Positions 12,623 to 51,700 of a stretch of 64,000 nt of DNA are shown piece by piece (the stretch's first letter is position 1; each line of letters opens with the position of its first letter). The notes below the pieces were generated by a model. It had not been told where the DNA came from and made no database searches. It saw nothing but the letters and a program-made list of their open reading frames with translations. Location: positions 1-64,000 of the IMG/VR virus record IMGVR_UViG_3300002231_001563, one strand, 5' to 3'. Made by a program: the position numbers and the translations under genes. The DNA comes from a virus.

Positions 12623-13054
12623 ATGTTTGTTGTTTGGGGTATAGTTGGTTTCTTTTTTACGTCGCTGATGTTTTATTTAAATCATCGTTTTGTTGGTCAT
12701 GGGCCTTTAGGGAAGTGGCCCCTCTTGAGGCACATGAGAAGACTACATATGAAACACCACAGGCATGATTACGATGAAGAGCGAAATACTCACCTCACCC
12801 TTCCGTTGTGGGCTAAATTTTTATTCTTACTCACCTTCTTTCTTCTATCTTTAATATCCCTATCATTTGCTGTGGGTTATATCGTCTATGTGCTTTATTA
12901 TGGCTGGCTCCATCATAAAATGCACAATGATGACAAGACAGGCTATTGCTCACAACACCATTATATCCACCACAGAAAATCAGCAAAGCATAATTTCTCA
13001 GGTACAATGCCATTTATTGATAAAATTTTCGGAACTCATTTAAAAAAAGCTTGA
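12623..13054 (+). CDS. histidine-box membrane hydroxylase (fatty acid hydroxylase/desaturase superfamily)
   Basis: Encodes 143 residues with two or three membrane helices (residues about 1-20 and 58-90). It has the histidine clusters of the integral-membrane di-iron hydroxylases: HRFVGH, RLHMKHHRH, HHKMH and QHHYIHH. This superfamily includes sterol desaturases, fatty acid 2-hydroxylases and beta-carotene hydroxylase (CrtZ). The small size and the short central loop resemble CrtZ-like or minimal fatty acid hydroxylases. The substrate may be a host membrane lipid or carotenoid; the sequence does not decide. AAGAGGT precedes the ATG. Its last codons overlap the -35 box of the tRNA promoter. This would be an auxiliary metabolic gene. 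Confidence 0.8.
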   Translation: MFVVWGIVGFFFTSLMFYLNHRFVGHGPLGKWPLLRHMRRLHMKHHRHDYDEERNTHLTLPLWAKFLFLLTFFLLSLISLSFAVGYIVYVLYYGWLHHKMHNDDKTGYCSQHHYIHHRKSAKHNFSGTMPFIDKIFGTHLKKA

Positions 13055-18101: not shown

Positions 18102-18863
18102 GTGGCTCATATATCATTTTCCGAATTGAAAAATTGGAATTTTTGTCCTTTCTATCATAAACTAACTTATATTGATAAATTAAAAGGTTTTCGTGGCAAT
18201 GAATACACGGCATTTGGTACTGCTATTCATGATGTATGCGAGAAAAAACTCCTTCAAGAATCATTCGACCCGGAGGAATATTTCATTAAGAGATTTGAGG
18301 AATGTTTAGCAGAATTAGATGACGACATTGAGTTTCGGGAAGATCCTGAAAAGATGGCCATCCAGGCCATGGGGATATTGCCAGAGATAAATTCATCGGT
18401 CAAAGATTATTTTTCCGCAGGCTATGAGGTAGTCTCTACAGAAGAGGCTTTAATGGAGCCAATCGACGGCGAGGAGTATAACTTTAAGGGTTATATCGAC
18501 CTCGTAATTAAAACTCCTGATGGAAAATATCATATTATTGATTGGAAATCTTGCTCATGGGGATGGGATATGCGACGTCGATCAGACCCCATGGTTACTT
18601 ATCAGCTAACATTATATAAAAAATTCTTCGCCCAGAAACACGGGATTGATTTAAAAAATATTGAAACACACTTTGCCCTATTAAAACGAACGGCGAAAAA
18701 AGATCGTGTTGAATTTTTCAGAGTTACCAGCGGGAATAAAAAAATGGACAATGCCTTTAGTCTCTTGAAAAAGGCGTTATTTAATATAAAACAAAAGAAT
18801 TATATAAAGGACAGGCGCTCTTGTGCAAAATGTGAATTTTGTCGATCAGATCACTGTCCGTAG
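18102..18863 (+). CDS. PD-(D/E)XK nuclease with cysteine cluster (Cas4/RecB-like)
   Basis: Encodes 253 residues from a GTG with GAGG five bases upstream. The motifs of the RecB/Cas4 nuclease family are in order: N-terminal SFSELKNWNFCPF, GTAIHDVCE, GYIDLV with Asp133, IIDWKS with Asp147 and Lys149, and QLTLYKKFF. One Cys near the N-terminus and a C-terminal CxxCxxCx4C (SCAKCEFCRSDHC) could hold an iron-sulfur cluster as in Cas4 and AddB. The expected activity is DNA end trimming or exonuclease action in phage recombination. No other CRISPR genes are present. It stands first behind the promoter at 18036, ahead of the glycan genes. Confidence 0.85.
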   Translation: MAHISFSELKNWNFCPFYHKLTYIDKLKGFRGNEYTAFGTAIHDVCEKKLLQESFDPEEYFIKRFEECLAELDDDIEFREDPEKMAIQAMGILPEINSSVKDYFSAGYEVVSTEEALMEPIDGEEYNFKGYIDLVIKTPDGKYHIIDWKSCSWGWDMRRRSDPMVTYQLTLYKKFFAQKHGIDLKNIETHFALLKRTAKKDRVEFFRVTSGNKKMDNAFSLLKKALFNIKQKNYIKDRRSCAKCEFCRSDHCP

Positions 18864-18871
18864 GAGAAATA

Positions 18872-20134
18872 ATGACAACAGAAAAGAAAAAGATCCTAGT
18901 TATCTCGGATCATCCTCTGGCGCCTTCGGGCGTCGGCACCCAAACTAAGTATGTAATTGAGGCGCTTCTCAGAACCGGTCGCTATAAGGTGGTATGCCTA
19001 GGCGGAGCAATGCAGCATAAGGACTATACCCCTCAGAATGTGGATGGCTGGGATGATGATTGGGTAATTTATCCAGTCAAGGGATATGGAACTCCGGAGA
19101 TGGTTCGATCAGCAATTTTTAATGAGAAGCCTGATATGTTATGGTTTATGACAGATCCCAGATTCTATGAGTGGCTGTGGTCTATTGAGAATGAGATTCG
19201 TGTCCATGTGCCGATGATTTATTATCATGTATGGGATAATTATCCCTATCCCCATTATAATAAAAAATATTATGAATCTACAGATGTAATTGCATCTATC
19301 TCTAAAGTAACACACGATATTGTTAATAATGTGGCTCCAAATGTGGAAAATCATTACGTTCCCCATGCAGTAGATACGCATATTTTTAAACCTCTTCCTC
19401 CTCAAGAGATTGAGGCTCAACGATCTCAACAATTTGGAACAGGGGATGATCGAGTAACTTTTTTCTGGAACAACAGAAACGCGCGTAGAAAACTTTCTGG
19501 ATCTCTTATTTTCTGGTTTAATGAATTTGCCGAAGAAGTAGGCCCCGAGAACGTTCGACTCATCATGCATACCGACCCTAAGGATCCTCACGGGCAAGAT
19601 TTAAACCTTATTATTAAATCTCTCAATGCGGACGATGGCCGAATTTTATTATCCACAGAAAAGGTTCCACCCGGAATCCTAGCGGCCTTATATAATATTG
19701 TAGATTGCACAATTAATATTTCTGATGCTGAAGGTTTTGGATTGGGTACCCTCGAATCACTTTCTTGTGGAACTCCAATCATCGTAAATATGACGGGAGG
19801 ACTTCAAGAACAAGTCACAAATGGGAAATATACTTTTGGAGTAGCTATTGAGCCAGCCTCTAAAGCAATCATAGGCTCCCAACAGGTTCCCTTTATTTAC
19901 GAAGATAGAGTATCTAAAGAGGACTTTATTGCTGCACTCAAAGAAATCTACAACATGACTCCAGATCATCGCCGAACACTTGGCCAACTTGGAAGAACAC
20001 ATGTTATTGAAAATTACAACTTTGAAAATTATAAAAAAGAATGGATAAAACTTATTGACAGCGTGGTAGAAAATCATGGGTCATGGGAAACGAGAAAAGG
20101 TTATCAGCCTTGGGAACTTAGGGAGATCGCGTGA
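18872..20134 (+). CDS. glycosyltransferase, GT-B fold (GT4-like)
   Basis: Encodes 420 residues from the ATG at 18872, which has AGGAGA in front. The N-terminal Rossmann half starts KKILVISDHPLAPSGVGTQT and ends near SKVTHDIV..YVPHAVDTHIF, the usual linker. The C-terminal half contains INISDAEGFGLGTLESLSCG (about 285-304), the GT4 donor-binding signature with the E-x7-E pair, and TPIIVNMTGGLQEQV. It transfers a sugar from a nucleotide-sugar donor to an unknown acceptor, probably in the cytoplasm. It opens the glycan operon, and its stop overlaps the next GTG. Confidence 0.88.
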   Translation: MTTEKKKILVISDHPLAPSGVGTQTKYVIEALLRTGRYKVVCLGGAMQHKDYTPQNVDGWDDDWVIYPVKGYGTPEMVRSAIFNEKPDMLWFMTDPRFYEWLWSIENEIRVHVPMIYYHVWDNYPYPHYNKKYYESTDVIASISKVTHDIVNNVAPNVENHYVPHAVDTHIFKPLPPQEIEAQRSQQFGTGDDRVTFFWNNRNARRKLSGSLIFWFNEFAEEVGPENVRLIMHTDPKDPHGQDLNLIIKSLNADDGRILLSTEKVPPGILAALYNIVDCTINISDAEGFGLGTLESLSCGTPIIVNMTGGLQEQVTNGKYTFGVAIEPASKAIIGSQQVPFIYEDRVSKEDFIAALKEIYNMTPDHRRTLGQLGRTHVIENYNFENYKKEWIKLIDSVVENHGSWETRKGYQPWELREIA

Positions 20135-22155
20135 AACAGAAAATTTTAGTAAAAGGGCCTGTCCTTTCTCAATCAGGATATGGCGAGCAGGCGCGCTTAG
20201 CACTCCGAGCACTTCGAAGTAGGGAGGATATTTTCGATATCTATATTATCCCCACTACGTGGGGCCAGACGGGTTGGATCAGCCTCCCAAATGAAGAACG
20301 AGGCTGGATTGACCGAAGAATTGCACAAACTCATCTCTTTTCGCAACAACAAGGTCAATTCGACATATCCCTTCAGGTTACAATCCCTAATGAATGGGAG
20401 CGCCTCGCACCCGTAAATATCGGCTATACAGCGGGCATCGAGACAACAAAGGTGGCACCAGGCTGGCTAGAAAAAGTAAATGCAATGGATCGCGTCATTG
20501 TAGTTTCCAATCACTCTAAAGAGGTATTTGAGAATAGCGCCTATCACGCCCAGCATCCTGTCACTGGTCAAATGGTCGCCCTTACCTGTACCACTCCGAT
20601 TGATGTAGTTAATTATCCAGTAAGAGTCACAGAGAAGAAGAAATTAACTTTAGATTTAAAACATGATTTTAATTATCTTGCGATTTCACAATGGGGCCCT
20701 AGAAAAAACTTCGATAACTTAATCAATTGGTTTGTGGAGGAAAATTTTGACCAAGAAGTGGGGTTGGTGCTTAAAACTTCAATTAAAAACAATTGTATTA
20801 TCGACCGCGAATACACTGAGGAAAAGCTAAAAAGTATCCTCTCCTCCCATGAAGATTGCAAATGTAAAGTTTATTTATTGCACGGAGACCTCACAGAAGA
20901 AGAGATGAATGGCCTTTATCAGCATCCTAAAATTAAGGTGCTTATTTCGACTACACATGGTGAGGGATATGGGCTACCATTATTTGAGGCTGCATATAAT
21001 GGTCTCCCTGTGGTGGTTCCCGGCTGGTCCGGCCAGCGCGATTTTCTCTATGTAAAAGACAAGAAAGGAAAGAGCAAGCCTCTTTTTGCATCAGTGGAAT
21101 ATGACTTAAAAAATATCCAGAAAGAGGCCGTTTGGCCTGGGGTACTACAAGAAGATTCTCAATGGGCATTTCCTCGGGAGGCAAGCTTCAAACGTCGCCT
21201 GCGCGAGGTGAGAACCGAATATTCTCGCTTCAAGCGAAATGCTACGCGATTAAAAAAATCATTAATTGAAAATTTTACAGAGGAGAAAATTTATAGCGAT
21301 TTTGTGACAAGCGTGGCGCCTTCGCTCACACAAGAGAACAGGACAATTCAAGAAATTCACCAACAATCACAAACAATTGAAGACATAAAAGAAAGAGTCT
21401 CATACCTCAAGAAATCCCTGGGCGCAGTCCATTCTCAATCAGAAAAAATTGAGATTCTTAAAGACTCTTTTAAGGGTAAAAAGTGTTATGTCCTGTCGTG
21501 TGGTCCTACTCTGACAGATCACGACGAGGTAAAACTTAAATCTTTACTAAAAGATAATCTTGTAATCGCAGTTAAACAAGCATATGATCTATTCGGCGAA
21601 CATGTGGATTTTCACGCCTATAATTGTGCTAATTTTAAAGAATATGATTATTCGGCAAACAGCCCTATTACAGTAGAGGCCTCAACTTCTCCTTGGCATT
21701 TGGGTCCGTGTGATTTAAAGTTTCTAATTCGCGAAAGGAATTTTAATAATTCCATCTCGCAGACTCACGATTTCGATTCGTGGACCTACGATAACCAAAT
21801 CAATACACGCCCTTATGGTCCTGGAATTATGTATGAGTCGGTATTTTATTTAGCTCATCATCTCGGGGTATCCGAAATCATAACGATTGGGTGGGATAAT
21901 AAATTAACAAATTCTGATCCATCCAAAACACATTTCTATGATAAAGAAGGATCTATTTATGATGAGGCAGACTTCATCCAACAGAACAAGGTGGCAGACA
22001 ATCCAGCTGCAGTGAATACTCTCGAACACGAGGCGAAAATTACGACCGCCGCCATCGCGAATTGGGCTAGTTGGCTTAGCAAAGAGGGGATAATTTTGAA
22101 AATTGTTTCTTCGATCAATCCAGCCCCTAAAACAATTGAAAGGGTAGAATTATAA
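20131..22155 (+). CDS. glycosyltransferase fused to a Maf/DUF115-like domain
   Basis: Encodes 674 residues from a GTG overlapping the previous stop. Residues about 1-390 are a GT-B glycosyltransferase: GPVLSQSGYGEQARLALRAL, GYTAGIETTKVAP, WGPRKNFDNLI and STTHGEGYGLPLFEAAYNG. A helical linker (about 395-445) leads to a second domain (about 448-674) beginning KKCYVLSCGPTLTDHD and containing YGPGIMYESVFYLAHHLGVS then EIITIGWDN. That pattern resembles DUF115/Maf proteins and GT42 sialyltransferases. Maf proteins transfer pseudaminic or legionaminic acid to flagellins, which fits the nonulosonate genes downstream. A two-step glycan-building enzyme is the likely role. The domain assignment is by motif and gene context. 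Confidence 0.75.
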   Translation: MKQKILVKGPVLSQSGYGEQARLALRALRSREDIFDIYIIPTTWGQTGWISLPNEERGWIDRRIAQTHLFSQQQGQFDISLQVTIPNEWERLAPVNIGYTAGIETTKVAPGWLEKVNAMDRVIVVSNHSKEVFENSAYHAQHPVTGQMVALTCTTPIDVVNYPVRVTEKKKLTLDLKHDFNYLAISQWGPRKNFDNLINWFVEENFDQEVGLVLKTSIKNNCIIDREYTEEKLKSILSSHEDCKCKVYLLHGDLTEEEMNGLYQHPKIKVLISTTHGEGYGLPLFEAAYNGLPVVVPGWSGQRDFLYVKDKKGKSKPLFASVEYDLKNIQKEAVWPGVLQEDSQWAFPREASFKRRLREVRTEYSRFKRNATRLKKSLIENFTEEKIYSDFVTSVAPSLTQENRTIQEIHQQSQTIEDIKERVSYLKKSLGAVHSQSEKIEILKDSFKGKKCYVLSCGPTLTDHDEVKLKSLLKDNLVIAVKQAYDLFGEHVDFHAYNCANFKEYDYSANSPITVEASTSPWHLGPCDLKFLIRERNFNNSISQTHDFDSWTYDNQINTRPYGPGIMYESVFYLAHHLGVSEIITIGWDNKLTNSDPSKTHFYDKEGSIYDEADFIQQNKVADNPAAVNTLEHEAKITTAAIANWASWLSKEGIILKIVSSINPAPKTIERVEL

Positions 22156-23123
22156 TGAAATATTTTATCACCGGCGGCACAGGCTCTCTAGGTAAGGCTC
22201 TCATTAGAAGAATTTTGAGAAATAAAAAAAATAAAGTTATAGTTTATAGCCGCGATGAGGGAAAGCAGGCTAATATTTTTAGAAATTCTGAACGCGTTAA
22301 ATGTGTAATAGGGGACGTCCGCGATTTTCAGAAACTAGACACTACGATGCGCATTCATAAGCCGGATTTTGTAATCCACACAGCAGCCCTAAAGCGTGTT
22401 GATGACATGGAATTTCATCCTGATGAATGCATGAAGACTAATGTATATGGAAGTGAGAATATCGCCATTGCATCTTTAAATCATAATGTGAAAAAATGTA
22501 TACTTATCTCCACGGATAAGGCTTGTCAGCCCGTAAACGTATATGGTTCATCCAAATTTATAGCAGAAAGAATTTTTACAAATTATGATTATAATTCAAA
22601 TTCTACTATTTTTGCCTCCGTGAGATATGGGAATGTGATTGCTTCACGAGGATCTTTTATACCTCTCTGGATTCAACAAATAGCGGAGAAAGGAGAGATT
22701 ACGGTGACTTCTAACGAATGCAGCCGCTTCCTTTTCACGTTGGGCGATGCGGTAGATACAGTATTGAGCGCCCTAGAGAGTGCAGAGGGGGGTGAAGTTT
22801 TTATTCCAAAAATTCATTCCTTTTCTATGAATACTATTATTGACGCGGTGAAACAAATGACTGCAAAATCTGAAATTAGGGTAAGGAATATAGGCATGAG
22901 GCCAGGAGAAAAATTGCATGAAGATATGCTTTCGAGGACTGAGTTACCTTTTACGAGAGTGATTAACGGCAAGCTCCTAGCCGTCTTACCTCAATACACC
23001 AACAAAACTCACTCTCATGCCCAAAAATACATCGGAAAAGAATTTAATTCTTCCCTTCATTTAAATGATAATATATCCGACCTCGTAGTTTTGATCACTC
23101 GCGGTCTTGAAGACGCTAATTAA
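22155..23123 (+). CDS. pseB: UDP-GlcNAc 4,6-dehydratase (PseB-type)
   Basis: Encodes 322 residues of an extended SDR. GGTGSLG at residues about 6-12 binds NADP, IGDVRD follows the second strand, HTAALKRVDDMEFHPDEC matches the PseB/FlaA1 substrate loop, STDKACQPVNVYGSSK contains the catalytic Asp-Lys and YxxxK, and RYGNVIASRGSFIPLW and GMRPGEKLHE complete the family pattern. PseB inverts C5 while dehydrating UDP-GlcNAc, the first step to pseudaminic acid; a retaining homologue would lead elsewhere, and the sequence points to the inverting type. Its start overlaps the previous stop (TAATG), and the aminotransferase follows after 12 bases. Confidence 0.9.
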   Translation: MKYFITGGTGSLGKALIRRILRNKKNKVIVYSRDEGKQANIFRNSERVKCVIGDVRDFQKLDTTMRIHKPDFVIHTAALKRVDDMEFHPDECMKTNVYGSENIAIASLNHNVKKCILISTDKACQPVNVYGSSKFIAERIFTNYDYNSNSTIFASVRYGNVIASRGSFIPLWIQQIAEKGEITVTSNECSRFLFTLGDAVDTVLSALESAEGGEVFIPKIHSFSMNTIIDAVKQMTAKSEIRVRNIGMRPGEKLHEDMLSRTELPFTRVINGKLLAVLPQYTNKTHSHAQKYIGKEFNSSLHLNDNISDLVVLITRGLEDAN

Positions 23124-23135
23124 TAGAGGTTTAAT

Positions 23136-24140
23136 ATGAAAATATTCGAGACTACTATCCACCCCGAAGATATAGAAAAAATATCTAGTGTAGTTAGGGC
23201 AGGAAATATGGGGTTTGGAAAAAATGTCCAGCTGTTTGAGAATGCATTTGAATCATTTTCTAATAAAAAATATAATATAGCCACCAATAGTGCATCTGCC
23301 AGCGCCTTTATGATTTTCTCTTATTTGAGGGAAGTCTGCGGAGAATGTGATGTATATACCACTTCTTTGGGATTCACGTCTCCCGCATGGGCAGCTAAGC
23401 ATTTCGGACACAATTTGATCTTTGTAGATGTCAACGATGAATTACAATTTAGCGTAGAAGATTATAAAAAACAAAGACAAATCCGCTGTGAAAGATATAG
23501 TGATGGCGGCATTGTGCCGGTCGTAATGCCTGTCTTATATGGTGGTGTAAGTACTATTCCGGGATTTGATGAATTTTTCGAAAATAGTTTATATAGAGAA
23601 ATCATAATTGTCGATTCGGCTCACTGTGTCACTCCCACCATAAAATCACACTTTACTTTTTTCTCTTTTCATCCTTATAAGCCAATCTGTACCTCTGATG
23701 GTGGAATGATATCTACCGACAATACTCATGCAGATGAATATTTTAGGTGTTATAGGAACTTCGGTCGCACCAATGGCCAAGTTTCATATGACATAAATCA
23801 ATCTGGTTTTAAATTTTATATGAACAATTTGAATGCAACCATCGGCCTAACTCAATTAGATAGATATGAAGAAAATTTACAAATTAGAAAACATAATTAT
23901 TCCAAGCTACTAGATGAGTTCGAGGGTTGTTTGATGCCCCAGGATAAAAAATCTTCATTTTATTTCGCTACAACCTTGACAATTAACGCAAATGATGTTA
24001 TATTAAATAAAGATTTAACAAGACTATATCCCATGTTACATAAAACATCTTATTTTGATAATGGTCAAAAGCTCCCAAATTTAGAACTTATCCATCCAGC
24101 TATCTTGAATATGCCTTTATATGCGGATTTCACATTATGA
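23136..24140 (+). CDS. DegT/DnrJ-type sugar aminotransferase (PseC-like)
   Basis: Encodes 334 residues. NIATNSASASAFM is the cofactor phosphate region, TTSLGFTSPAWAAKHFGHN and FVDVNDELQFSVEDY match the family core, VDSAHCVTP holds the pyridoxal-binding Asp, and FFSFHPYKPICTSDGGMI contains the Schiff-base lysine. It would aminate C4 of the 4-keto sugar made by the preceding dehydratase. It is shorter than the usual 370-390 residues because the C-terminal end stops at PLYADF, but the catalytic parts are complete. A second promoter is embedded at 23976-24004. The stop overlaps the next start (ATGA). Confidence 0.85.
   Translation: MKIFETTIHPEDIEKISSVVRAGNMGFGKNVQLFENAFESFSNKKYNIATNSASASAFMIFSYLREVCGECDVYTTSLGFTSPAWAAKHFGHNLIFVDVNDELQFSVEDYKKQRQIRCERYSDGGIVPVVMPVLYGGVSTIPGFDEFFENSLYREIIIVDSAHCVTPTIKSHFTFFSFHPYKPICTSDGGMISTDNTHADEYFRCYRNFGRTNGQVSYDINQSGFKFYMNNLNATIGLTQLDRYEENLQIRKHNYSKLLDEFEGCLMPQDKKSSFYFATTLTINANDVILNKDLTRLYPMLHKTSYFDNGQKLPNLELIHPAILNMPLYADFTL
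23976..24004 (+). promoter_or_regulatory. sigma70-type promoter inside the aminotransferase gene
   Basis: TTGACA at 23976-23981, a 17-base spacer and TATATT at 23999-24004, identical in form to the promoter at 10904. It lies about 130 bases before the next start and could boost the distal glycan genes. Because it sits in coding sequence it may be coincidental. Confidence 0.5.
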
Positions 24141-25030
24141 AAAATTTATTATTGGTAGGTACTGCAGAGAGCACATTGAGAAGGTGGGAAGATTTAGAAA
24201 GGTTCGCTAAGGATCCCAATATTGAAATTATGTGCTATAGTAATTCTATGGAATTATTCTTAAAAAAAGGCATAGAGCCAGATTATTGGTTTTTCGTTGA
24301 TCCTACTTCTGCGCTCGATACTTTGAAATTGATTAACAATACCTATACTTCTGCTTCTAAATTAAAGACAAAGCTGCTTACCATACACCACAAAGGCGCC
24401 ACTCATATTGGTGACACCACGACTTTAAATAAATATTTTGCTGGAGATACCGTACGTCTTCCGTTAGAATATTGGCGAGAATTTTGGAAAAATTTACAGG
24501 AGGCGCGCCACAACATAGAAGAAGTTCAAGATCTAAAATATGCATCAATCAAAAGTATAAATCAAAATCCCGAAGAATTTCCAGAGCTAAAAACCCTAGG
24601 CAAAAATTCTAGGCAGCCACACTTAAGATTCAACAATAGTGAAGGCATTATAATTTTTGGAAACTCGGGATATCCCCCAGCAGCCGAGCCATTTTTAAGG
24701 AGAATTTTTTCACAAGGGCGCGCCTATCCATACATAAACAAAGAAAAATATGGTTTCATGCATATGACAGAAAATAAGATGACCATGGTGGCACTCCCTG
24801 TCTGCGCTTTTTTACAAGTAGAAAATTTATATGTGATAGGATTCGATGGAATTGGAGGCCGCTGGGATGACCCGTCTAACAATGCAGGCGTCTTTGAAGA
24901 CTCCTCTTTTCAAGAATTTTATTTAAAGGAGTGGCTGGAGTGGAGAAGGTATACTAATATGAATATTTATTCTATTGTTGAGGATAAATATACCATCCTT
25001 AATAAATTCATAGAGTATGTGCCCATATAG
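24137..25030 (+). CDS. Maf/GT42-like protein, possible nonulosonate transferase
   Basis: Encodes 297 residues. The start KNLLLVGTAESTLRRWEDLE resembles the nucleotide-binding strand of GT42/DUF115 proteins. A central GIIIFGNSGYPPAAEPFLRR and late LQVENLYVIGFDGIGGRW correspond to the conserved segment of the same fold (IGxDG). DYWFFVDPTSALD near residue 55 fits the family pattern of a mid-domain acidic motif. It shares this layout with the C-terminal domain of the protein at 20131, so the two may act on the same CMP-activated sugar. Similarity is weak, and a different sugar-related enzyme cannot be excluded. It is coupled to the aminotransferase upstream. Confidence 0.5.
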   Translation: MKNLLLVGTAESTLRRWEDLERFAKDPNIEIMCYSNSMELFLKKGIEPDYWFFVDPTSALDTLKLINNTYTSASKLKTKLLTIHHKGATHIGDTTTLNKYFAGDTVRLPLEYWREFWKNLQEARHNIEEVQDLKYASIKSINQNPEEFPELKTLGKNSRQPHLRFNNSEGIIIFGNSGYPPAAEPFLRRIFSQGRAYPYINKEKYGFMHMTENKMTMVALPVCAFLQVENLYVIGFDGIGGRWDDPSNNAGVFEDSSFQEFYLKEWLEWRRYTNMNIYSIVEDKYTILNKFIEYVPI

Positions 25031-25040
25031 GAATAATATA

Positions 25041-25928
25041 ATGAATAATAGGCAGTTTTTGAAATATATGCAATATTTGGAATTCGGTCGTCCCCCTCAC
25101 GAATTTTGGGGCTCAACTGACTTAAATCAGAATCTCGAATACCTTGAAGAAGGTGGTCCATTCGACAATACTTCGACTCCACGAAAATACAGTGATATAA
25201 ATAATTATGACCAAATTATTTATAATTATTCTATTATGAGATCGGGATCTACTCTTTTAAAACAAATTATGTCAGAGATTTTTGACTATCAAAAAATTCT
25301 TTATTTCTATAAGTGGCCACGGTTCAAGCTCTTCAATCCCCCCCAAGCATGTCACAGTCCCATCATTATGACCTATCGAGATTTCCGAGACGTAATTCTC
25401 TCTACGAGAAGGATGAGGCTTTCGATGCATGGACTCACTAAAGAGGAATCATTTAGGCACCTCCCTACAAAAAAAGAAATTCTTCTCTTGGCTGAGAGGG
25501 AGGTTATCCCCCAAATTAATGGTTTTGAGGCGGTATCAACAATGGCTAAGGATAGAATATTAATGTTAAGATACGAAGATTTTTACGGAAATTATGATCA
25601 TATTTTCGATAAATTTGAATCTTTTTTTAATAGTGAATCTTACTCTGAAATTCTAAAGCACCACGATCATCATAATGGCCTACAAATATCTCCCGATATG
25701 CGCAAACGCCTAAAATTAAAATTTTCTTTTGAGAATAATTTTAAAAAAACTGAAGCGCATAAAAATTTTAGATCATGGGATACCAATACTAAAAGTGGAC
25801 TTTCACTTCATGGCGATCACATGAATAGTGGGGTTTTGGAAGAATGGAGAGGGCTACCAAATGATTTATCTTCCTACATGACGGAAATATTATACCCATA
25901 CCTGCAGCGCTGGGGTTACGAAAAATAA
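25041..25928 (+). CDS. sulfotransferase
   Basis: Encodes 295 residues from the ATG at 25041; an earlier in-frame ATG at 25017 lies inside the previous gene. Both PAPS-binding motifs are present: YSIMRSGSTLLKQIM (about 62-76, 5'-phosphosulfate loop) and MTYRDFRDVILSTRR (about 108-122, 3'-phosphate loop). The rest is helical with MLRYEDFYGNYD, a typical third element of the family. It would transfer sulfate from PAPS to a hydroxyl or amino group, most likely on the sugar built by the neighbouring enzymes. PAPS would have to come from the host, since no sulfate-activation genes are seen here. Confidence 0.82.
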   Translation: MNNRQFLKYMQYLEFGRPPHEFWGSTDLNQNLEYLEEGGPFDNTSTPRKYSDINNYDQIIYNYSIMRSGSTLLKQIMSEIFDYQKILYFYKWPRFKLFNPPQACHSPIIMTYRDFRDVILSTRRMRLSMHGLTKEESFRHLPTKKEILLLAEREVIPQINGFEAVSTMAKDRILMLRYEDFYGNYDHIFDKFESFFNSESYSEILKHHDHHNGLQISPDMRKRLKLKFSFENNFKKTEAHKNFRSWDTNTKSGLSLHGDHMNSGVLEEWRGLPNDLSSYMTEILYPYLQRWGYEK

Positions 25929-26620
25929 TGAAAAATATTAAAGATATATGCTTCCTAATCTTAGCAAAATCAAACTCCCAGCGTTTACCTGGGAAGATGC
26001 ACAGGCCTTTTTCCAACACCACCCTGTTAGATGTGGCAATAACGAAACTGCTAGATTCAGAGATAATTCCCAATAGTCAGATTTATATTGCGGGTCATGG
26101 CCCAGAAGTAATAGAAATAGCAAAAAAATATAAAAACGTAAATTTGTTTAAAAGATCTGATTCTTCGATTTCCGAAGACGCCACTATTCGAGAAATTTAT
26201 GAAATTGTTGACCATATCCCTCATAAATTTTTTGTAGAAATAAACGCATGTTGCCCCCTGTTATCAATCTCGACGTTAGAAGAATTTATTGAAAAATATA
26301 TTCAATCTAATTATGATGGACTATTCGGAGTTATAAAGAGACGGACATTTTACTGGAACTCTCACGGGACTCCCCTGAGGGAGTGCACGGCCCACCTAGA
26401 CACCAAGAGGGCTAATATAATTTATGAGGCCGCTCACTGTTTATATGCTGGGTCCATGGACGATATTCGAAGAAATATTCACATGGGAACTTTCCGCTAC
26501 AGCAACGACCCAGCCATTTTTGTAATAGAAAATGAAAAGGAGTGTTGGGATGTGGACTATGAATGGCAGCTAGAGATAGCTGCAAGTATGTTTGAAAATC
26601 TATTAAGAGAGGAAAAATGA
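25928..26620 (+). CDS. CMP-nonulosonate cytidylyltransferase (NeuA/PseF-like)
   Basis: Encodes 230 residues. FLILAKSNSQRLPGKMHRPF (about 9-28) is the nucleotide-binding loop of the NeuA/KdsB family, where the usual ARxGSKRLPGKN is written AKSNSQRLPGKM. FVEINACCPLLSISTLEEFI is the NPTSPL-like segment. EDATIREIYEIVDH and CWDVDYEWQLEIA complete the fold. It activates a nonulosonic acid as its CMP-sugar, the donor needed by Maf- and GT42-type transferases. The substrate (Neu5Ac, pseudaminic or legionaminic acid) cannot be told from motifs. The start overlaps the sulfotransferase stop. Confidence 0.85.
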   Translation: MKNIKDICFLILAKSNSQRLPGKMHRPFSNTTLLDVAITKLLDSEIIPNSQIYIAGHGPEVIEIAKKYKNVNLFKRSDSSISEDATIREIYEIVDHIPHKFFVEINACCPLLSISTLEEFIEKYIQSNYDGLFGVIKRRTFYWNSHGTPLRECTAHLDTKRANIIYEAAHCLYAGSMDDIRRNIHMGTFRYSNDPAIFVIENEKECWDVDYEWQLEIAASMFENLLREEK

Positions 26621-26811
26621 CCAAACGAACCGACTTGGAAATCATTGACGAAATTGAGCAAATTCGAACAAAAAATAATGTTAATTGGATGGACATTCTC
26701 AGACTGGTATTTACAGTCGCACCAGATGAGGCCAGAAAATTAATGTCCAGAGTTGATGATTTTGATAATAAAATCTCAACTTTAGTGAAGGAGTTAGCCG
26801 ATAATGGCTAA
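26617..26811 (+). CDS. small helical protein within the nonulosonate operon
   Basis: Encodes 64 residues, helical and charged: MTKRTDLEIIDEIEQIR, a central NNVNWMDILRLVFTVAPDEA, then DDFDNKISTLVKELADNG. The first part resembles the small helical proteins found beside NeuB and cytidylyltransferase genes in some surface-polysaccharide clusters, but that resemblance is a recollection of context rather than a family match. It overlaps both neighbours (four bases upstream, eight downstream), which suggests it is a stoichiometric partner of the synthase or cytidylyltransferase. Confidence 0.55.
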   Translation: MTKRTDLEIIDEIEQIRTKNNVNWMDILRLVFTVAPDEARKLMSRVDDFDNKISTLVKELADNG

Positions 26812-27820
26812 TAAGTGTCTTGTAATAGCTGAAATAGGAATAAATCATAATGGAGATATTTCTCTAGCTAAGGAAACAATTATAGCTGCAAAAGAATGCG
26901 GAGTAGATGCAGTTAAATTCCAGACGTTTAAAGCGGAGGAATTTATAGGAGACTCCAACCTAACTTATACTTATGAATCACAAGGAAAAACCGTCACCGA
27001 ATCTCAAATAGAGATGTTCAAGAGATATGAATTTAGCCGGAACGAATGGCTGGATATAATTCAATTTTGCAATAAAAATGAAGTACTTTGCTTCACGACT
27101 CCGCAGAATAAGTCAGATTTAGACTTTATTTTAGATATTTTCAGCCCCCCTATTATAAAAGTAGGATCAGATGATCTGACAAATTTAGATCTTTTAAGAT
27201 ATTACGCCAGTAAGAAAATACCTATGATAATTTCAACAGGCATGTCATTTAGCGACGAGATCGAAGAAGCCATCGAAATACTAAGAGAATTCCCTAATTT
27301 AGATTTTACCGTCCTCCACTGTGTATCTTCTTATCCGACGGAAGATTTTGAAGTCAATATGAAAAAAATGCTGACTATTAAAGAAAAATTCAATGTTAAA
27401 ATAGGATTTTCAGACCATACCCGAGACCACCTTGCAGCTATAGTGGCTGTAGCTCAAGGGGCTGTGGTAATAGAGAAACATTTCACTCTGGATAATAACC
27501 TTCCAGGACCCGATCACCGCTTTTCAGCAAACCCGACTCAAATGAAAAAATTAGTTCAAGGCGTACGCCGTACAGAGATCTTGCTGGGTTCGCCTGACTT
27601 GGTGCCTGTCAAGAGTGAGATTGCTATGAGGTCTTTAGCGCGCCGCAGTATTGTAGTTAATAAATCCCTTCCGAAGGGGCATGTCTTATGTAGGGAGGAT
27701 CTATCTTTTAAGCGTCCGGGAACTGGTCTCCCACCCAAAAAAGTGGATGATTTTATTGGAGAAACTCTTAAGGTGAATAAATCAAAAAACGATATTATCC
27801 TTTATGAGGAGATTTTATAG
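26804..27820 (+). CDS. neuB: nonulosonic acid synthase (NeuB/PseI/LegI family)
   Basis: Encodes 338 residues, full length for the family. The TIM barrel carries EIGINHNGD (9-17), AVKFQTFKAEEF, FTTPQNKSDLDF, IKVGSDDLTN, ISTGMSF, LHCVSSYPT, IGFSDHTR and EKHFTLDNNLPGPDHRFS, all hallmark segments of the PEP-condensing enzymes. Residues about 280-338 are the C-terminal SAF/antifreeze-like domain (RRSIVVNKSLPKGHVL, FKRPGTGLPP). It condenses phosphoenolpyruvate with a six-carbon amino sugar to make the nine-carbon acid. The neighbouring PseB-type dehydratase favours pseudaminic acid. Reassignment to LegI or true NeuB is possible. Confidence 0.93.
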   Translation: MANKCLVIAEIGINHNGDISLAKETIIAAKECGVDAVKFQTFKAEEFIGDSNLTYTYESQGKTVTESQIEMFKRYEFSRNEWLDIIQFCNKNEVLCFTTPQNKSDLDFILDIFSPPIIKVGSDDLTNLDLLRYYASKKIPMIISTGMSFSDEIEEAIEILREFPNLDFTVLHCVSSYPTEDFEVNMKKMLTIKEKFNVKIGFSDHTRDHLAAIVAVAQGAVVIEKHFTLDNNLPGPDHRFSANPTQMKKLVQGVRRTEILLGSPDLVPVKSEIAMRSLARRSIVVNKSLPKGHVLCREDLSFKRPGTGLPPKKVDDFIGETLKVNKSKNDIILYEEIL

Positions 27821-28263
27821 TGAATATAATAAAGAATATTCTAGTAAAATTATTGGGCTTATATCCAAACTCATTCCATCCCCTAGTATATATTAAGGGT
27901 GCTCCGGAGATAGGAGATAATGTCTTTGTTGGTTTCTATTCAGAAGTTAACGCAACAAAAGGGCGAGTTGTATTATCTGACAATTGTGATATAGCTTCAT
28001 TTGTTTCTATTAATGTGGCGGATTCTCACAAAATGTGCATAGAGATAGAAAAGGAAATTGAACGTGGTGAGATAATTTTAGAAGATAATGTTTTCGTTGG
28101 GTCTCATAGTTTTATAGGCGGGAAGACACACATAGGCCATCATTCTGTAGTAGCTGCAGGAACTATCTTGATTAATGGAGGTAAAATCCCTCCCTTTTCT
28201 TTAATAATTGGGAATCCATATGTGGTTAAAGAGGGATACTATAGAGAGAAAGAGAAAAGATAA
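27820..28263 (+). CDS. left-handed beta-helix acetyltransferase
   Basis: Encodes 147 residues from a GTG overlapping the synthase stop. Hexapeptide-type repeats run through the protein: PEIGDNVFVGFYSEVNA, VVLSDNCDIASFVSI, IILEDNVFVGSHSFIGG, THIGHHSVVAAGTIL and PPFSLIIGNPYVV, the last being the standard ending of sugar O- or N-acetyltransferases of the LbH class. It probably acetylates the amino sugar or the nonulosonate. Since no GNAT-type PseH is present, it is a candidate for the missing N-acetylation step. The first 25 residues are more hydrophobic than usual and may form an extra helix. Confidence 0.8.
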   Translation: MNIIKNILVKLLGLYPNSFHPLVYIKGAPEIGDNVFVGFYSEVNATKGRVVLSDNCDIASFVSINVADSHKMCIEIEKEIERGEIILEDNVFVGSHSFIGGKTHIGHHSVVAAGTILINGGKIPPFSLIIGNPYVVKEGYYREKEKR

Positions 28264-28952
28264 TGGTACTAACAGCCCATCAGCCAGCATATTTGCCATG
28301 GCTTGGTTATTTTCAGAAAATGATGTTGAGTGATGAATATGTCATTTTAGATACGGTTCAGTTCGAAAAAAATAGTTTCATCAATCGTAACAAAATTAAA
28401 ACCTCTAATGGCGCCACCTGGATGACGGTTCCTGTTTTAACAAAAAACTATCGTGCCAAGACTATCGCAGACATGGAAATAAACAATGACCTCAATTGGA
28501 GAAAGAAACATTGGCTTACGTTATTAAATAATTATAAAAAAGCCCCCTTTTTTGAGCGATACGGAGATTTTTTTAAGGATATGTATACGCAAGAATGGTA
28601 TACTCTTGTAGATTTGATAAACTATTCCAATAAATTTTTTATTAACGAACTCGATATTAAGACAAAATTTATAAATTTGGGCGATTTAGATATCGCATCC
28701 AAAAAGCAAGATCTAATAATTGATTTATGCAAGGAGAGAAAATCGACAAATTTTCTATTTGGATCCCAGGGTAAAGATTATGTAGACGTGGAAAAATTCG
28801 AGCTTGAAAAAATAGAAGTATCTTTTCAAGATTATTGTCACCCCACATATCGGCAGCAGTGGGGAGACTTTATTCCTTATTTGTCGGTAGTGGATCTGCT
28901 GTTTAATGAAGGTCCGGAAAAGTCTAAACATTTAATAAGAGGTGAAAAATGA
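28263..28952 (+). CDS. WbqC-family protein
   Basis: Encodes 229 residues with the characteristic start MVLTAHQPAYLPWLGYFQKM, then DTVQFEKNSFINRNKIKT and TWMTVPVLTK, and later STNFLFGSQGKDYVD and YCHPTYRQQWGDFIPYLSVV. These are the conserved blocks of the WbqC family, found in many O-antigen and nonulosonate gene clusters. Its biochemical activity is not established; it is thought to act in amino-sugar modification. The start overlaps the acetyltransferase stop, and the end overlaps the methyltransferase, so it is embedded in the pathway. Confidence 0.85.
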   Translation: MVLTAHQPAYLPWLGYFQKMMLSDEYVILDTVQFEKNSFINRNKIKTSNGATWMTVPVLTKNYRAKTIADMEINNDLNWRKKHWLTLLNNYKKAPFFERYGDFFKDMYTQEWYTLVDLINYSNKFFINELDIKTKFINLGDLDIASKKQDLIIDLCKERKSTNFLFGSQGKDYVDVEKFELEKIEVSFQDYCHPTYRQQWGDFIPYLSVVDLLFNEGPEKSKHLIRGEK

Positions 28953-44248: not shown

Positions 44249-45744
44249 TGGGTATAAAAAAATATATTGCCAATGCCAACAATACCATCACAAGCGCCTT
44301 CAGATCCAACTTACAGACTAGAGGCACCGGCGCAAACATGGGACTCTCGGACGTCCTAGAAACTTTTTCAATTTATGGGCAAGCCTCTTCGGGGTCAACA
44401 GAGCTGGAAAGAATACTCATCAAATTTCCAGTTTCTGACATCATTACTGACCGAGCAGCAGGAACAATACCTGCAGAAGGAAAAGTAAATTTTTATTTAA
44501 AAATGTATAATGCGCGCAGCAATCAAACACTTCCCCGCCAATTAAATTTGGTGGTTCTTCCCGTCAGTGAGCCATGGCAAGAGGGGGTGGGCCTTGATAT
44601 GGAAGAATATAGAGATGTCACGGAAAACGGGGTGGGATCCAACTGGATCAATGCGTCTGCCTCAAATCCCTGGACACGTCCAGGCGGAGATTATTTAACA
44701 TTCCCGGCCCCCAATTATTCCCAACTATTCCCAGTTGGAAATGAAAATCTTCAAATCGACATTACAACTCTCGTAGAGCAGTGGGTAGATGGAACATTGG
44801 ATAATTATGGCGTCGGCGTCCATCTCACCGGAACTCAAGAAGCCTATTTTTCTAACTCCGCAGGCCTCGATGTAGGAAGCCAATTATTCAATCCTAGTGG
44901 ATCGCGCGATACTTATTATACAAAAAAGTTCTTCGGCCGTGGAACTGAATTTTTCTTTAAACGCCCAGTCATTGAGGCAGTATGGAATTCTGCGGTAAAA
45001 GATGATAGGGGAAGTTTTTATCTTAGCAGCTCCCTCTTACCGTTATCCGAAAATATGCATACCCTTTATTTATATAATTCATTTGGCGGCCGTCTCTTCA
45101 ATATTCCAGCCGTCGGAACAGGGGATATTTATTTAAATATTTTTACATCTTCTGCTGGGGGAAGTAGAGTAAATGCTGTCCCAATTACAGGTGGCTATGT
45201 ATCTCGCGGCATTTATTCAGCCTCGTTCGAATTGGATACAACAGCCAGTACTGTCTATGATCGGTGGTATCATCACCTTCTTGCGGCCTCCACCGGTACA
45301 TGTTATCATACTGGTACCTTTAATGTGCGCACTCATTCAATGCGAGAATATAATCCTTACCCCAAATATGTCTCATCGCTAACTAATTTACAGGACTCCT
45401 ACAATGTGGCTGAAACAGCACGCTTCAGATTTTATGTAAGAGAAAAAGATTGGAGTCCAACTATTTACACAGTAGCAACCAAAGAAATTGATACTCTTAT
45501 AATAGCAAGTGCATCCTATCAGGTATATAGAATAATTGATGATCTAGTGGTCATCGCTTATAATACCGGGAGCGATAAAGGGACGGAAATGTCATACGAT
45601 GTGAGTGGAAATTATTTCGATTTAAAAATGAATCTTCTAGAACCTGGATATTCTTATGGAATAAAAATTGCCTATTATAATGAAACAGTCAACAGTTATG
45701 TAGAGCAGCCATATGATTGGAAATTCAGGGTAGAAAAAGTATGA
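44248..45744 (+). CDS. DNRLRE/CBM-like baseplate-associated protein
   Basis: Encodes 498 residues. Residues about 50-200 match the DNRLRE (CBM96-type) beta-sandwich pattern: LERILIKFPVSDI, VNFYLKMYNARS, VVLPVSEPWQEGVGLD and IDITTLVEQWVDGTLDNYGV. This is normally found in secreted bacterial carbohydrate-binding proteins. The remaining 300 residues are beta-rich with repeated SGxY/TGxY motifs, suggesting further sandwich domains. It lies directly between the gp6-like gene and the giant protein, so a peripheral wedge or fibre-anchoring protein is likely. The last four bases overlap the next start. Confidence 0.65.
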   Translation: MGIKKYIANANNTITSAFRSNLQTRGTGANMGLSDVLETFSIYGQASSGSTELERILIKFPVSDIITDRAAGTIPAEGKVNFYLKMYNARSNQTLPRQLNLVVLPVSEPWQEGVGLDMEEYRDVTENGVGSNWINASASNPWTRPGGDYLTFPAPNYSQLFPVGNENLQIDITTLVEQWVDGTLDNYGVGVHLTGTQEAYFSNSAGLDVGSQLFNPSGSRDTYYTKKFFGRGTEFFFKRPVIEAVWNSAVKDDRGSFYLSSSLLPLSENMHTLYLYNSFGGRLFNIPAVGTGDIYLNIFTSSAGGSRVNAVPITGGYVSRGIYSASFELDTTASTVYDRWYHHLLAASTGTCYHTGTFNVRTHSMREYNPYPKYVSSLTNLQDSYNVAETARFRFYVREKDWSPTIYTVATKEIDTLIIASASYQVYRIIDDLVVIAYNTGSDKGTEMSYDVSGNYFDLKMNLLEPGYSYGIKIAYYNETVNSYVEQPYDWKFRVEKV

Positions 45745-48700
45745 GCATTAGAGATCTTTTTGATAAAAATATTCCAACATCCATAGTAACCAGTCGCGAC
45801 CTGGCTGAGTTGGGGAAGGATGTTGAGTCAGCGGCTAATATTACTCAAAAAATACGCCAAAAGACACGCTTTATTCCCCAAAAAGACTATGGAGATCCGA
45901 AAAATTTTGCCCACTTTGGTTCAGCGGTTCAATATTATAATGATGCATTTTCGCGAATTGCTAACCAATACCCTTACGACGGGTCCCTCAGTGAGCAGAC
46001 TAAATTTATAAATGATTCAACTTTCTTGGATCTTTACATTTTTGACAAGCTATACCCTCGCCGCACTGGATATGTTAAAATAGCTCCTTCCGGATTTGGT
46101 GTTTCCGGTGGGTCTACGGCTTTTTCTGGAACGTCGATAGGCCTCCCTGTAAGTTTGGAGTATATCCAAGCTATAGGCGGCCCCCACACTGCGTCTAGTG
46201 GTATGATCGGTCAGCCGCTCGAAAAGACATTCGCTCATTCTAATATTTATGACACGGCTCAAGACCGAGAGTCAAATTTAAAATGCGATATGGAGAGCGG
46301 GGTTACCATCGAATTTTGGATGAAAAAATCATCACTTTTTAATTCCCTCACGGAAACTGAAATCGAAGTTCCAGCTATGCTTTCCAACGGCGTATCCGGC
46401 TCTGTTATGGTACTTATTGACACCACTACACCCGGCGATGATACCCGCAATCGTATCAGCATCAAAGCGACTTCGGGATCTGCCTATGTAGGATCATGGA
46501 ATACTGGCCTCACAAATGTGCAGATTTTGGACAATAAATGGCACCATTATGCCTTTACTTTTAAAAATACAGCCACTACATTGACGGCTCAGGCCTTCTA
46601 TGACGGCGCTCCCTACTCGTCAGGAACGGCGGCCCCTGCGCCGATGGGGGAAGTTACAGGAGCTTTGAAATTAAATATTGGTTCTGCGCGCACCCTCCGC
46701 TGGGATGCCGGCGGCCTCGACCTCACAATTCCGGCTGACGGCTATGGAAAACTAACGGGATCTATCGATGAATTCCGCTATTGGAAGACAGCCCGCACTG
46801 CCGAAGACATTGGGAGATATTGGTTCACTCAATACGGAGGAGGAACCAACACTGATCTTGCCAATACTTCTCTGGGGGTGTATTATAAATTTAATGAAGG
46901 AATCACAGGAATCACAGCCACTGACTCTACAACTCTCGATTATTCGGGCCGAATTTCAAATGGCACATGGGTAGGATATACCTCGGGAGCGCGCTCCACC
47001 GGATCTGCCATAGATACTTATTTAGGTCGTCAGAGTGAGTTCCGAGACCCCATTATTTATACAGATCATCCAGCAGTTATCAGTTTACAAGATTCTCTCA
47101 TTGGTTCAGCATCAGCCTATGATTTGCAAAATAATTCCTCTATTTATCGCTCGTTGCCATCATGGATTGTGGACGAGGATGGAAATAGTGGACAAGAATT
47201 ATTAAAATTAACACAAATTCTTTCCAGCTATCTAGACACCCTATATTTACAAATCGAAAATTATCCTCGCCTTAAAGATATACAGTATCCTGGCCCCGAC
47301 TCAAAGCCAATTCCTTTCGCACATAAATTGCTTGAGGGATATGGTCTGGCTACTTCTGAGATGTTCGTGGATGCCACTATTTTAGAACAGATATCGAATC
47401 GAAATGAAGAAGCCAAATTTGATGAAGATTTGTCCGATATTAAAAATTTAATATATAAAAATATTTATAACAATCTTGTTTATATATATAAGTCCAAGGG
47501 GAATATAAAAGCTTTTAGAAACGTGATGAGGTGCTACGGCATTGACACAGATTTAGTAAAAATCAACCTGTATGGGGACAATACCACCTATAGATTAAGA
47601 GACAATTACGAGACCCTTTCCACACGTAAAAAATATATAGATTTCAATCACCCTTCTAGATATGGGGGAACCCTCTATCAACAAGATCTAGGCTTGGGAT
47701 CTACGGCCAGGTCCTACATCACAGGGTCTCGCACCACTCAGGAAATATATACCGCCTTCACACTAGAAGGGGAAGCCATTTTCACCACACCGCAGCCCGT
47801 AAAGCAGGCTGATTATTTCGCCACTCCCTTCATTACATCCTCCTTGTTTGGTTTTCATGGGGTAAGTCCAGTAGCTCCCTCTAACTTAGCTTTTCCTGGA
47901 TCTGATGATTTTGTTAATGTTTACGCCGTAAGGGAGGCAGCTGAATCTCCCAACGTAAAATTCTGCTTTGTTTATGGCGTGTCCGGAATTACTTTGGGCA
48001 CCGTGATGAGTCCGCTTTTTTATGATGTCTATAATAATCAAAAGTGGAATTTTGCCCTTCGGTTTAAATCCACCAAAGAGGGTGGAAATTTAGTAAGCGG
48101 ATCGACCACCGGCAATGATTATATCCTCGAATTATATGGCGCAAATGCCGAAGCGGGACAAATATCACAACAATTCACCATTACAGCATCGCTCCCTGTG
48201 GGACTAGGGGTAAATAGATATAAATATCTTTCGGAACCTAAACGCATTTACGCAGGCGCCCATAGACAAGATTTTGTTGGAGCCATTCTCCAATCTACCG
48301 ACATTAAATTGGGTTCGGTGCGATATTGGACAAAATATCTAGAAGATGGGGAGATTAACTCACACGCCCGAGATCCACAAAATTTCGGCAGCCTAGCTCC
48401 ACACCAGAGCACTTATCTCTATCCCACTTCCCTTACAGGAACTCATATTCCCCAAATAGAGACTTTGGCTTTAAACTGGGAATTCGATACAATCACGGGA
48501 TCTAATGCATCGGGAAGATTTAAGGTATTAGATTTATCCTCTGGCTCGGCCAATAAGCAAGATAAATACCGGTGGATGGGCGATATTGTGGGTACTAATC
48601 ATCCGGCCAGCGCAAGCTTTTTTCCAGCCAATAGTTCAAAAGCTCTAGATACCAGGTTTGTTTACACCGCCCAGCAAACTCTACCTGAAAATATTCAGGG

Positions 48701-51700
48701 CCACAACATGGTTTCTATTGGGGAAAATGATAACATCTTTAAAAAGACTACGCGCCCAGTGGAATACTTTTTCGCCATTGAAAAGAGCATGTATCAAAAT
48801 ATTTCTCAAGAAATATTAAATGTCTTTGCAACGATTGCAGATTTTAATACCCTAATAGGGGATCCTGTCAATCGTTATCGGGGAGAATATAAAGCTCTTC
48901 AAAAATTGCGTCAGCTATTCTTCGAGCGCGTCGAGAATGAGCCAGATTTAGACAGGTATATAGAATTTTATAAATGGATCGATAGTTCTCTTACTACATT
49001 TTTAATGCAACTAGTCCCCGCTTCAGCACGCTTTTCGAACTCAATGCGCACTATGGTAGAGAGCCATGTTTTAGAGCGCAACAAATATCGAACAAAATTT
49101 CCCACTCTGGATCTAGAAATCCCCGAATTATCTGTAGGAATAGCCGGAATCAATGAGCTATTGGAAGATTGGGAAACAGATCACCACCCCGTTAGCGGAA
49201 GGCAAGATGAAAATTGCCCCTGGTGGAAGACACGAGCAGAAAGAAGAGGAGTAATCTCCTCGGGCGTACCGACCGTCGACGAAAACCGTTCAGCCTATTT
49301 GAGCGCAAGTCTTCAGGTTTTGAATCGCCAACGAACGACTCCTTATAAGTATGGTGTCGAAAAAGCCACTATTTTAAAGGGTGGTTCTAATTTTTATGAC
49401 AATAAAATAGGAGATTATGTAAAGAATACTCTTCCCTGGATGGATTCTGGGGCAACTACGGGACTCTACATCTTATCGGGCAATATCGAGCCCTACACTT
49501 GCTCGGATCCCCCTCCCCCAAATACCAAGAGAAAATTAAAGTACGGAGTTTTCACAGCAGACTCGGGAATGGCATCTTTCCCTAATTCTTACAATTATAC
49601 TTCCGGCAAGGGCGAAATGTTCGTGCCCTTTAGTATTTATAGCGCGTCTTACGTGAATGCATTTTCTCAAAATTTAGTCACCGCCCTGGGCTATAATTTG
49701 GAAATTACCAACGTCGATAATGACTCTTATGGGGTCTCTGAAGGTGTCCCCATGCAGGGCCCTTTTACTGACAAGTTTGTGGGGGGTAATCAATATAGAC
49801 ATGTGGATCCCAATTTAGATGGGACCGACACGCCCCTTACTCGCCCGGAAGCTTGGAGATTGAGGGCTGGAACGGGAGTCGTAAAAATTGCAAGACAACC
49901 ATTTCAGCGCCCTAGAGCGATGCTATATCGCGATATGGTTGCTAAGAGGCCTCTTAATCTTCAAAATATTAAGCAAGTTAATGGTACAGACACCCGCTAT
50001 GTTTCAGGAACCCTGCAAGCTCAGATTGGTAATTATCGCAAATCCTATGAAATAGTTCAAGCGCCTGGCCGCACGACCAACAACCGCGCTTGGGTACGCA
50101 AGGGCCCTTGGATCTTAAATGACGCCCTCGACCCCTCCCACTTGACAGCATCTATGTTTGTGGGTGGCATGTTTGATGCACCCGAAATAGATAGGGGAAG
50201 AACGGGATACGTGATGGTCTCGCGCTTTTCATCTCCAGGCGGCCCCGACACGGCTGGTGATAGCAACGGTGGCCCCGGTCTAGACCGCTTCGCCGCCGAG
50301 TTTTCCCCAAATAACGAAATGAATTGGAGAAATAGTGAAGTTAGGGATCCTTTAAGAAAGTGGCTATTAACCCCCCATGTGAATCAGTTTGGTTTCTATA
50401 GCGGCGTACCTGACAGAATCGCTTCTTCTTCAGTAAATGCAACAAATTACAGAGGTACGGGCTCCTTTTACCAAATTAATCGCAATCGCCGCAGAGTAAT
50501 TAAAGAGGTTGCCCCGGGAACTCTCGGAACAGCTTCGGTATACGACAATTACTATATTCAACATCCTATCCCATCTACTGATTTAAGGTATGCGTGGATC
50601 ACTGCCTCTTATCTTTCAACCACCCCTGTGGGTCTCGGATATTGGCCAACTGAATTTTATATTCCTGACTTATATACCGCCAGTATCGGCCCGGTTAATT
50701 TTGTTAGTGCCAGCGCGCAGAGCTATTCAATCCCGGTAGATTTTGTGGGGATGAATAATCTCGTTTATTCACCTATTATGGATCGCTACGCATATGCAAA
50801 AGATGGACCTTCGGGCTTAAGGGTAAATTTGGATACCCGGCAAGAAGCTGCAGCCTTTGACTATAAGAACATCTTAGAATACAAAAATTCCAATATTACA
50901 ACGCCTCCGGACATTGATATGCTCAACATTTTGGATTTGCACCGTAACGGGCCATATCAAGCACCTAACTGGAAATTTATGCGCACTGCACAGAGCCCTA
51001 CCGCCCGTTATTTGCGAAAAAATAATTTTATAGGATGCACCGGCCAGAGATATATAACCCCCAGTTATATGGTGTCCCCTAAATTAGTAGAGGACACACA
51101 GACTACGCTATATTATGAACCGGCCGTATCAAAAATATCGACACCTTTCGAGATAATGGTGGGCACTCAAGGTCCAGGCGCCCCTCAATGTCAAGATCCC
51201 AATGTTTCTTCCACCGATGCATCTTCGGAAGTTGTGGTTAGCTTAGGCGTCTCTCTGATAAATGCCTATGGTTTTGCCAATGAAAATTTAACTAAATGTG
51301 CCAAAGGGGTTGTGACAATCGCCAATAATGATGATTCTGGCGGTCCCGATACGGCATGCCTCCAAACCGATACTGGCTACGGTACTATGACGGGGATGTA
51401 TTTATATGGCGCCCTCGACGATGACTCCAGCCCAGTCGATAGTTTTGTAGAGGCAAAATATCAATCCCCGGTATTCCCCGCAGCTATCAACCAATTTAGT
51501 CGCTTCTCACGCGCGCGCTCTCTCTATTATAATCGTTTCTGGAATTCTAGCCGGGCGACTCGCACCACCCGAGGCGAAACTAAATTTATTTCTCACGCTA
51601 CGTCGCAAGGGTGGGACGTGCCACAGAGCGAATGGGCCTTGGACGCCAATGCGAATTTCACCATGGGCCCCATCTATAATGCCAATACGGCAACAGGAAG

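Follow-up and report, generated by a model that had tools for sequence, protein, structure and literature searches.

The window, i.e. the whole stretch of 64,000 nucleotides analysed here (positions 1 to 64,000 of IMG/VR record IMGVR_UViG_3300002231_001563), is part of a virus record of 167,580 bases. It contains two consecutive glycosyltransferase (GT) genes followed by a putative nonulosonate cassette, with the following features:

18839..20134, + strand: first constant GT-B gene of the locus
20131..22155, + strand: whole fusion ORF, 674 aa, GTG start, no internal stop
20131..21330, + strand: GT-B (GT4-type) domain, aa 1-400, with conserved RK (191-192), K215 and E-x7-E (E278...E286)
21331..21441, + strand: helical linker, aa 401-437, from the secondary structure of the full-length model (pLDDT 81-97)
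21442..22152, + strand: DUF115/PF01973 domain, aa 438-674, putative CMP-nonulosonate transferase
22155..23123, + strand: PseB-like UDP-GlcNAc 4,6-dehydratase (TIGR03589, E 1.9e-80, under the equivalog cut-off)
23136..24140, + strand: PseC-like aminotransferase (TIGR03588, E 5e-30, under the cut-off)
24137..25030, + strand: second, divergent DUF115-like protein, candidate second nonulosonate transferase (PF01973, E 5e-4)
25928..26620, + strand: CMP-nonulosonate synthetase, PseF-like (PF02348)
26804..27820, + strand: NeuB/PseI nonulosonate synthase with SAF domain (PF03102, E 2.9e-79)
27820..28263, + strand: hexapeptide acetyltransferase of the cassette

The fusion ORF overlaps the preceding GT gene at its 5' end (that gene ends at 20134) and abuts the next gene (start 22155) at its 3' end. 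The initial annotation had described the encoded protein as a complete GT-B transferase joined to a Maf/DUF115-like domain carrying three sequence blocks. These blocks were located at aa 458-465 (GPTLTDHD), 562-571 (YGPGIMYESV) and 586-590 (IGWDN), and the ORF, the motifs, the Pfam and PHROG matches and the predicted folds all agree with the described architecture. Orthologues with 46-73% identity over the whole fusion occur on 10 other distinct IMG/VR contigs, and the fusion is therefore no assembly artefact. The AlphaFold2 (AF2) model of the full-length protein reached a pLDDT of 94 with a pTM of 0.70, which suggests two rigid domains whose predicted mutual orientation is uncertain.

Since the PseB-, PseC-, PseF- and NeuB-like matches all lie under the NCBIfam equivalog cut-offs, the exact nonulosonate cannot be named. 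Also in the cassette, the ORF at 25017-25928 gave a weak sulfotransferase match, so the glycan might be sulfated, and a WbqC-like protein (28263-28952; PF08889, E 4e-76) is followed by methyltransferase-like ORFs. Elsewhere in the window, a 143-aa ORF rich in histidine pairs (12623-13054; HHRH, HKMH, HHYIHH) looks by inspection like a protein of the fatty-acid hydroxylase or desaturase type. Downstream of the glycan locus, the tail region encodes a protein of 3477 aa (45717-56150) that contains a concanavalin A-like domain (Laminin_G_3).

The N-terminal domain is a GT4-type glycosyltransferase

The N-terminal part matched a glycosyltransferase family in PHROGs (E 1e-14), and in Foldseek searches the full-length model matched GT4-type structures, among them the chlorovirus NY2A enzyme 3oy2 (E 1.5e-15), BshA and SenB. 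With these enzymes the phage domain shares both the GT-B fold and the signature residues, that is, E-x7-E and the Arg/Lys donor-phosphate residues, which places it among GT4-type GT-B enzymes; the Pfam model Glycos_transf_1 scored 22.6 bits on the window protein, under its cut-off of 26.4. R191, K192, K215, E278 and E286 were invariant in 13 of 13 orthologues. Judged from this conservation of R191-K192, K215 and E278-x7-E286, the first catalytic site looks functional.

Family and fold of the C-terminal domain

By hmmscan, PF01973 (MptE-like) aligned to aa 438-592 with an E-value of 2.6e-8 and a score of 34.3 bits, just short of the 34.6-bit cut-off, and in a frame-level search of the whole record the same family scored 35.4 bits, just over the curated threshold, covering model positions 13-168 of 171. 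The domain belongs to PF01973 by score and by fold, while more divergent relatives score under the cut-off. A PDB sequence search with the domain alone returned nothing meaningful (PAN2, E 0.04), and with an 8-sequence profile no match was obtained.

The AF2 model of the C-terminal domain, built with 41 homologues, had a pLDDT of 93.2 and a pTM of 0.92. In the PDB its best Foldseek match was archaeal MptE (8sd5; E 7e-5, prob 1.0), followed by the Maf protein 5mu5 of Magnetospirillum (E 5e-3, prob 0.98), and GT29 sialyltransferases appeared as weak matches (prob 0.25-0.80; 0.66-0.80 for 2wnf and 6apl). Among viral model structures, the domain matched many uncultured phage proteins labelled MptE-like, some of them 540-700 aa long. 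The TM-scores to Maf and MptE were low (0.33-0.35), indicating a kinship so distant that the Maf or MptE pocket is not transferable residue by residue. When the phage-domain profile was aligned by hhalign to bacterial Maf-type central domains, the two matched with a probability of 96.3 (E 1.6e-9); the Maf-type profile was built with sequences from genomes that belong to the same class as a Desulfobacterales MAG, and it itself matches 5mu5 at E 2.6e-17. On profiles and model together, the C-terminal domain is a true DUF115 member.

The initial annotation had likened this part of the protein to both Maf and GT42 enzymes and had proposed a fold comparison with each. Kinship to the Maf central domain was borne out by Pfam, by profile-profile alignment and by the predicted fold. 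The GT42 half of the proposal was not supported, as GT42 was absent from the best 50 PDB fold matches of the domain, whereas GT29 was present, weakly. This makes membership in GT42 less likely but does not touch a functional analogy, and a CMP-sialic-acid-type donor is probably common to the phage domain and the GT42 (CstI/CstII) and GT29 sialyltransferases.

Within the DUF115 domain, P459, K482, D493, H495, N498, N501, D528, R560-P-x-GPG and E569 are invariant, as are G587-x-D589, H601, E634 and W648. The CstII motif residues N31, N51 and R129 seemingly align with KQ482-483, N498 and R560, a correspondence that serves as a lead and not as evidence. H601 and E634 are invariant across the 41 domain sequences. 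In CstII, the catalytic base is His188 (PMC4202792).

CMP-nonulosonates are the donors of Maf enzymes, which act on Ser/Thr residues of flagellin, and Maf genes are linked to nonulosonate genes. A reading of the whole fusion as a Maf protein was rejected. Maf consists of three domains, with an N-terminal Rossmann-like and a C-terminal helical domain around PF01973, and its central domain is reported to be CstII-like (PMC11339370). In the phage protein, only the region homologous by profile and fold to this central domain (5mu5; MAF_flag10/PF01973) is present; both flanking domains are absent, the domain stands behind a GT4-type GT-B and the protein ends soon after PF01973. Unlike Maf, the fusion is phage-borne and has no flagellin context.

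That the best fold match is a pterin diphosphokinase and no sugar transferase counts against a role in nonulosonate transfer. The domain shares its Pfam family, which is named for MptE, with this archaeal 6-hydroxymethylpterin diphosphokinase (8sd5, 8sbu), and it might accordingly be an MptE/HPPK-like pyrophosphokinase, its fusion to the GT then being unrelated to nonulosonates. The gene context differs, however: the phage domain resides in a glycan cassette, without pterin context, and among the scanned cassette ORFs there was no pterin-pathway gene. Together with the extension types and neighbouring genes described in the next two sections, this makes a pyrophosphokinase highly improbable.

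The fusion recurs and the C-terminal module is swapped

The same fusion was sought in other genomes, as had been proposed. A relative of the domain is encoded in 41 IMG/VR loci. After removal of duplicates, it is attached to the window-type constant GT in 10 other distinct loci, to a different GT-B in 21, and stands alone in 6; L036 and L038 encode the constant GT and the domain as two separate, adjoining genes. The initial annotation knew of no described phage protein with this pairing, but over 30 viral loci contain it, with two different GT partners. Nor is it confined to phages, as a Desulfobacterales MAG encodes a 1552-aa protein (L067:7944-12599) in which two GT4 domains and TPR repeats come after a DUF115 domain. 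The domain order of this bacterial fusion is opposite to that of the window protein.

In the domain tree there were two main clades, both well supported. The window-type fusions grouped with the split pairs and the stand-alone genes, and the second fusion type grouped with the bacterial relatives. The position of L036 among fused relatives suggests a secondary split. Judged by the tree, which does not strictly force this history, the domain was likely joined to a GT at least twice.

In GenBank phages, tblastn returned a good match for the GT part only, in Immutovirus and Microcystis phage Mel-JY01, and the C-terminal domain was not found in any of them. Immutovirus (Flavobacterium phage vB_FspM_immuto) is the nearest cultured phage with the constant part, and its locus has the same order as the window, i.e. 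PD-(D/E)XK nuclease, GT, constant GT and a variable cassette of GTs, aminotransferases and an epimerase. Behind this constant flank its cassette is a different one, and in contrast to the window it has neither a DUF115 domain (tblastn) nor an annotated nonulosonate synthase in the cassette.

The majority of constant GTs have no C-terminal extension. Where an extension exceeds 150 aa (35 distinct constant-GT proteins), it is a DUF115 domain in 10, a GT-A family 2 domain in 14, another GT-A family 2 domain in 3 and short and GT-B-like in 8; the last group starts GT4-like by inspection and received no Pfam call. The DUF115 domain is thus a module that can be exchanged on a phage GT whose remainder is constant. 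Those extensions of the constant GT that Pfam could classify are glycosyltransferases. This speaks for a glycosyltransferase in the DUF115 extension as well, and weighs against a pyrophosphokinase in the same place. In L013, L074, L078, L080, L081 and L112, at least three other extension types were seen at the same point of the constant GT.

The domain co-occurs with nonulosonate synthesis genes

Both NeuB and a CMP-sugar synthetase were found in 32 of 33 distinct viral loci in which the domain is followed by 7 kb or more of downstream sequence. The exception (L065) has a divergent partial match to the domain. So regular a placement of the domain in a glycan cassette with both genes is evidence against a pyrophosphokinase. 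As a control, phage records with the same constant GT and without the domain (n=30) were searched with Pfam models over the whole records. NeuB was present in 20/20 records with the domain and 11/30 controls (p 2e-6), and PF02348 in 20/20 and 14/30, respectively (p 3e-5); these p-values are only indicative, because the loci are related by descent and the contigs are of unequal length. An earlier count of CMP synthetases, 0/57 in loci without the domain, was discarded as too favourable, since the profile of the window protein had missed divergent synthetases that PF02348 detects in 14/30.

The presence of NeuB in 11 of the 30 records without the domain means that other transferases can do the job. 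Other PF01973 proteins occur in 5/30 controls, and of these five records all hold PF02348 and four hold NeuB. In one phage without the studied domain, a different PF01973 protein of 309 aa adjoins NeuB (L152:1306-2235, - strand), and other PF01973 proteins are likewise encoded in the records of L076, L127 and L130, which are all NeuB-positive. The bacterial relatives L068 and L069 adjoin a cytidylyltransferase-like gene, and by inspection so does the PF01973 protein of L171.

The second DUF115-like protein (24137-25030) offers a different assignment, in which it would be the actual nonulosonate transferase and the fused domain would move another CMP-sugar, e.g. a Kdo-like one, or a second nonulosonate. 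Its family profile matched the fused-domain profile (prob 91, E 9e-7), which makes it a divergent relative, although the domain profile found nothing when run against the single sequence of this ORF (prob 2.5). The family is frequent in PseB-containing loci, and two NeuB genes in many loci suggest two nonulosonates. As for Kdo, the passages of PMC7387560 on ORF4 of the E. coli K15 capsule predict a Kdo transferase for this DUF115/CstII-like protein. Like the phage domain, it is thereby a Maf-like protein assigned to a glycan and not to flagellin; unlike the fusion, it belongs to a bacterial capsule and those passages report no GT-B fusion. Against this division of labour, most loci of the second fusion type contain the domain, NeuB and a CMP synthetase without a 24137-type gene within 10 kb, and L027 has an intact fusion although its 24137-type gene is interrupted by stop codons. 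We consider the alternative assignment unlikely.

Proposed function and acceptor

We regard the protein as probably a bifunctional GT; the locus that encodes it is a hypervariable glycan locus of a marine tailed phage of large size. Its GT4-type GT-B domain, which does not vary within the phage group, would add a core sugar to the growing glycan. CMP-nonulosonate would be made by the PseB-like, PseC-like, NeuB-like and CMP-synthetase proteins encoded downstream, and from it the DUF115 domain would next add a nonulosonic acid of the sialic or pseudaminic type, so that two consecutive transfers would be held in one polypeptide. The initial annotation had proposed just such a coupling to the nonulosonate of the operon. 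The computed association of the domain with the synthesis genes, from a comparison of some 90 related phage contigs, agrees well with it, and we infer that CMP-nonulosonate is the donor, that the transfers occur in this order and that the two sugars are consecutive.

A protein acceptor, which the initial annotation had named as possible, is not well supported; as a guess, the acceptor is most plausibly a phage virion protein. Glycosylation of mycobacteriophage virions is documented in work cited in PMC12619734; no clear acceptor emerged when the large structural genes were scanned for Ser/Thr composition. The locus might instead make a host-surface or exported polysaccharide, since its gene content is like that of an O-antigen or capsule cassette, or modify phage DNA, and work cited in PMC12619734 includes virus-encoded GTs that act on DNA. 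No Wzx flippase (PF13440) was found in the 167.6-kb record, which may be incomplete, and the host could supply one. Likewise, no thymidylate-synthase-type hydroxymethylase (PF00303) was found in this possibly incomplete record, and the cassette encodes a long, variable glycan, so that DNA is the less likely acceptor. The absence of both genes from the record, incomplete as it may be, slightly favours a cytoplasmic protein acceptor over 5hmC-DNA or export of a polysaccharide. A product other than virion decoration is a serious possibility, though not the one we expect; it touches only the acceptor and leaves the proposed enzymology uncontradicted.

The known cases of nonulosonate transfer come mainly from animals and, in bacteria, from flagella, capsules and LPS. 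Phage proteins annotated 'MptE-like' may be glycosyltransferases and not pterin enzymes, and such annotations should be read with this in mind. Two features add interest to the finding, namely the wide distribution of the locus, which is common in marine viromes, and the swap site at the C-terminus of the constant GT. The latter provides a natural series of chimeric enzymes from which the rules of donor and acceptor choice by DUF115 domains could be learnt for substrates other than flagellin. More tentatively, and with doubt on our side, a widespread group of marine phages may possess an O-antigen-like swapping locus, in which a constant GT acquires exchangeable C-terminal transferase modules matched to the sugar made downstream, and the DUF115 module may define a new phage-borne class of nonulosonate transferases that coat virions with sugars of the sialic-acid type. 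If true, a phage locus that both makes and transfers nonulosonates would represent an unusual viral use of sialic-acid-like glycans.
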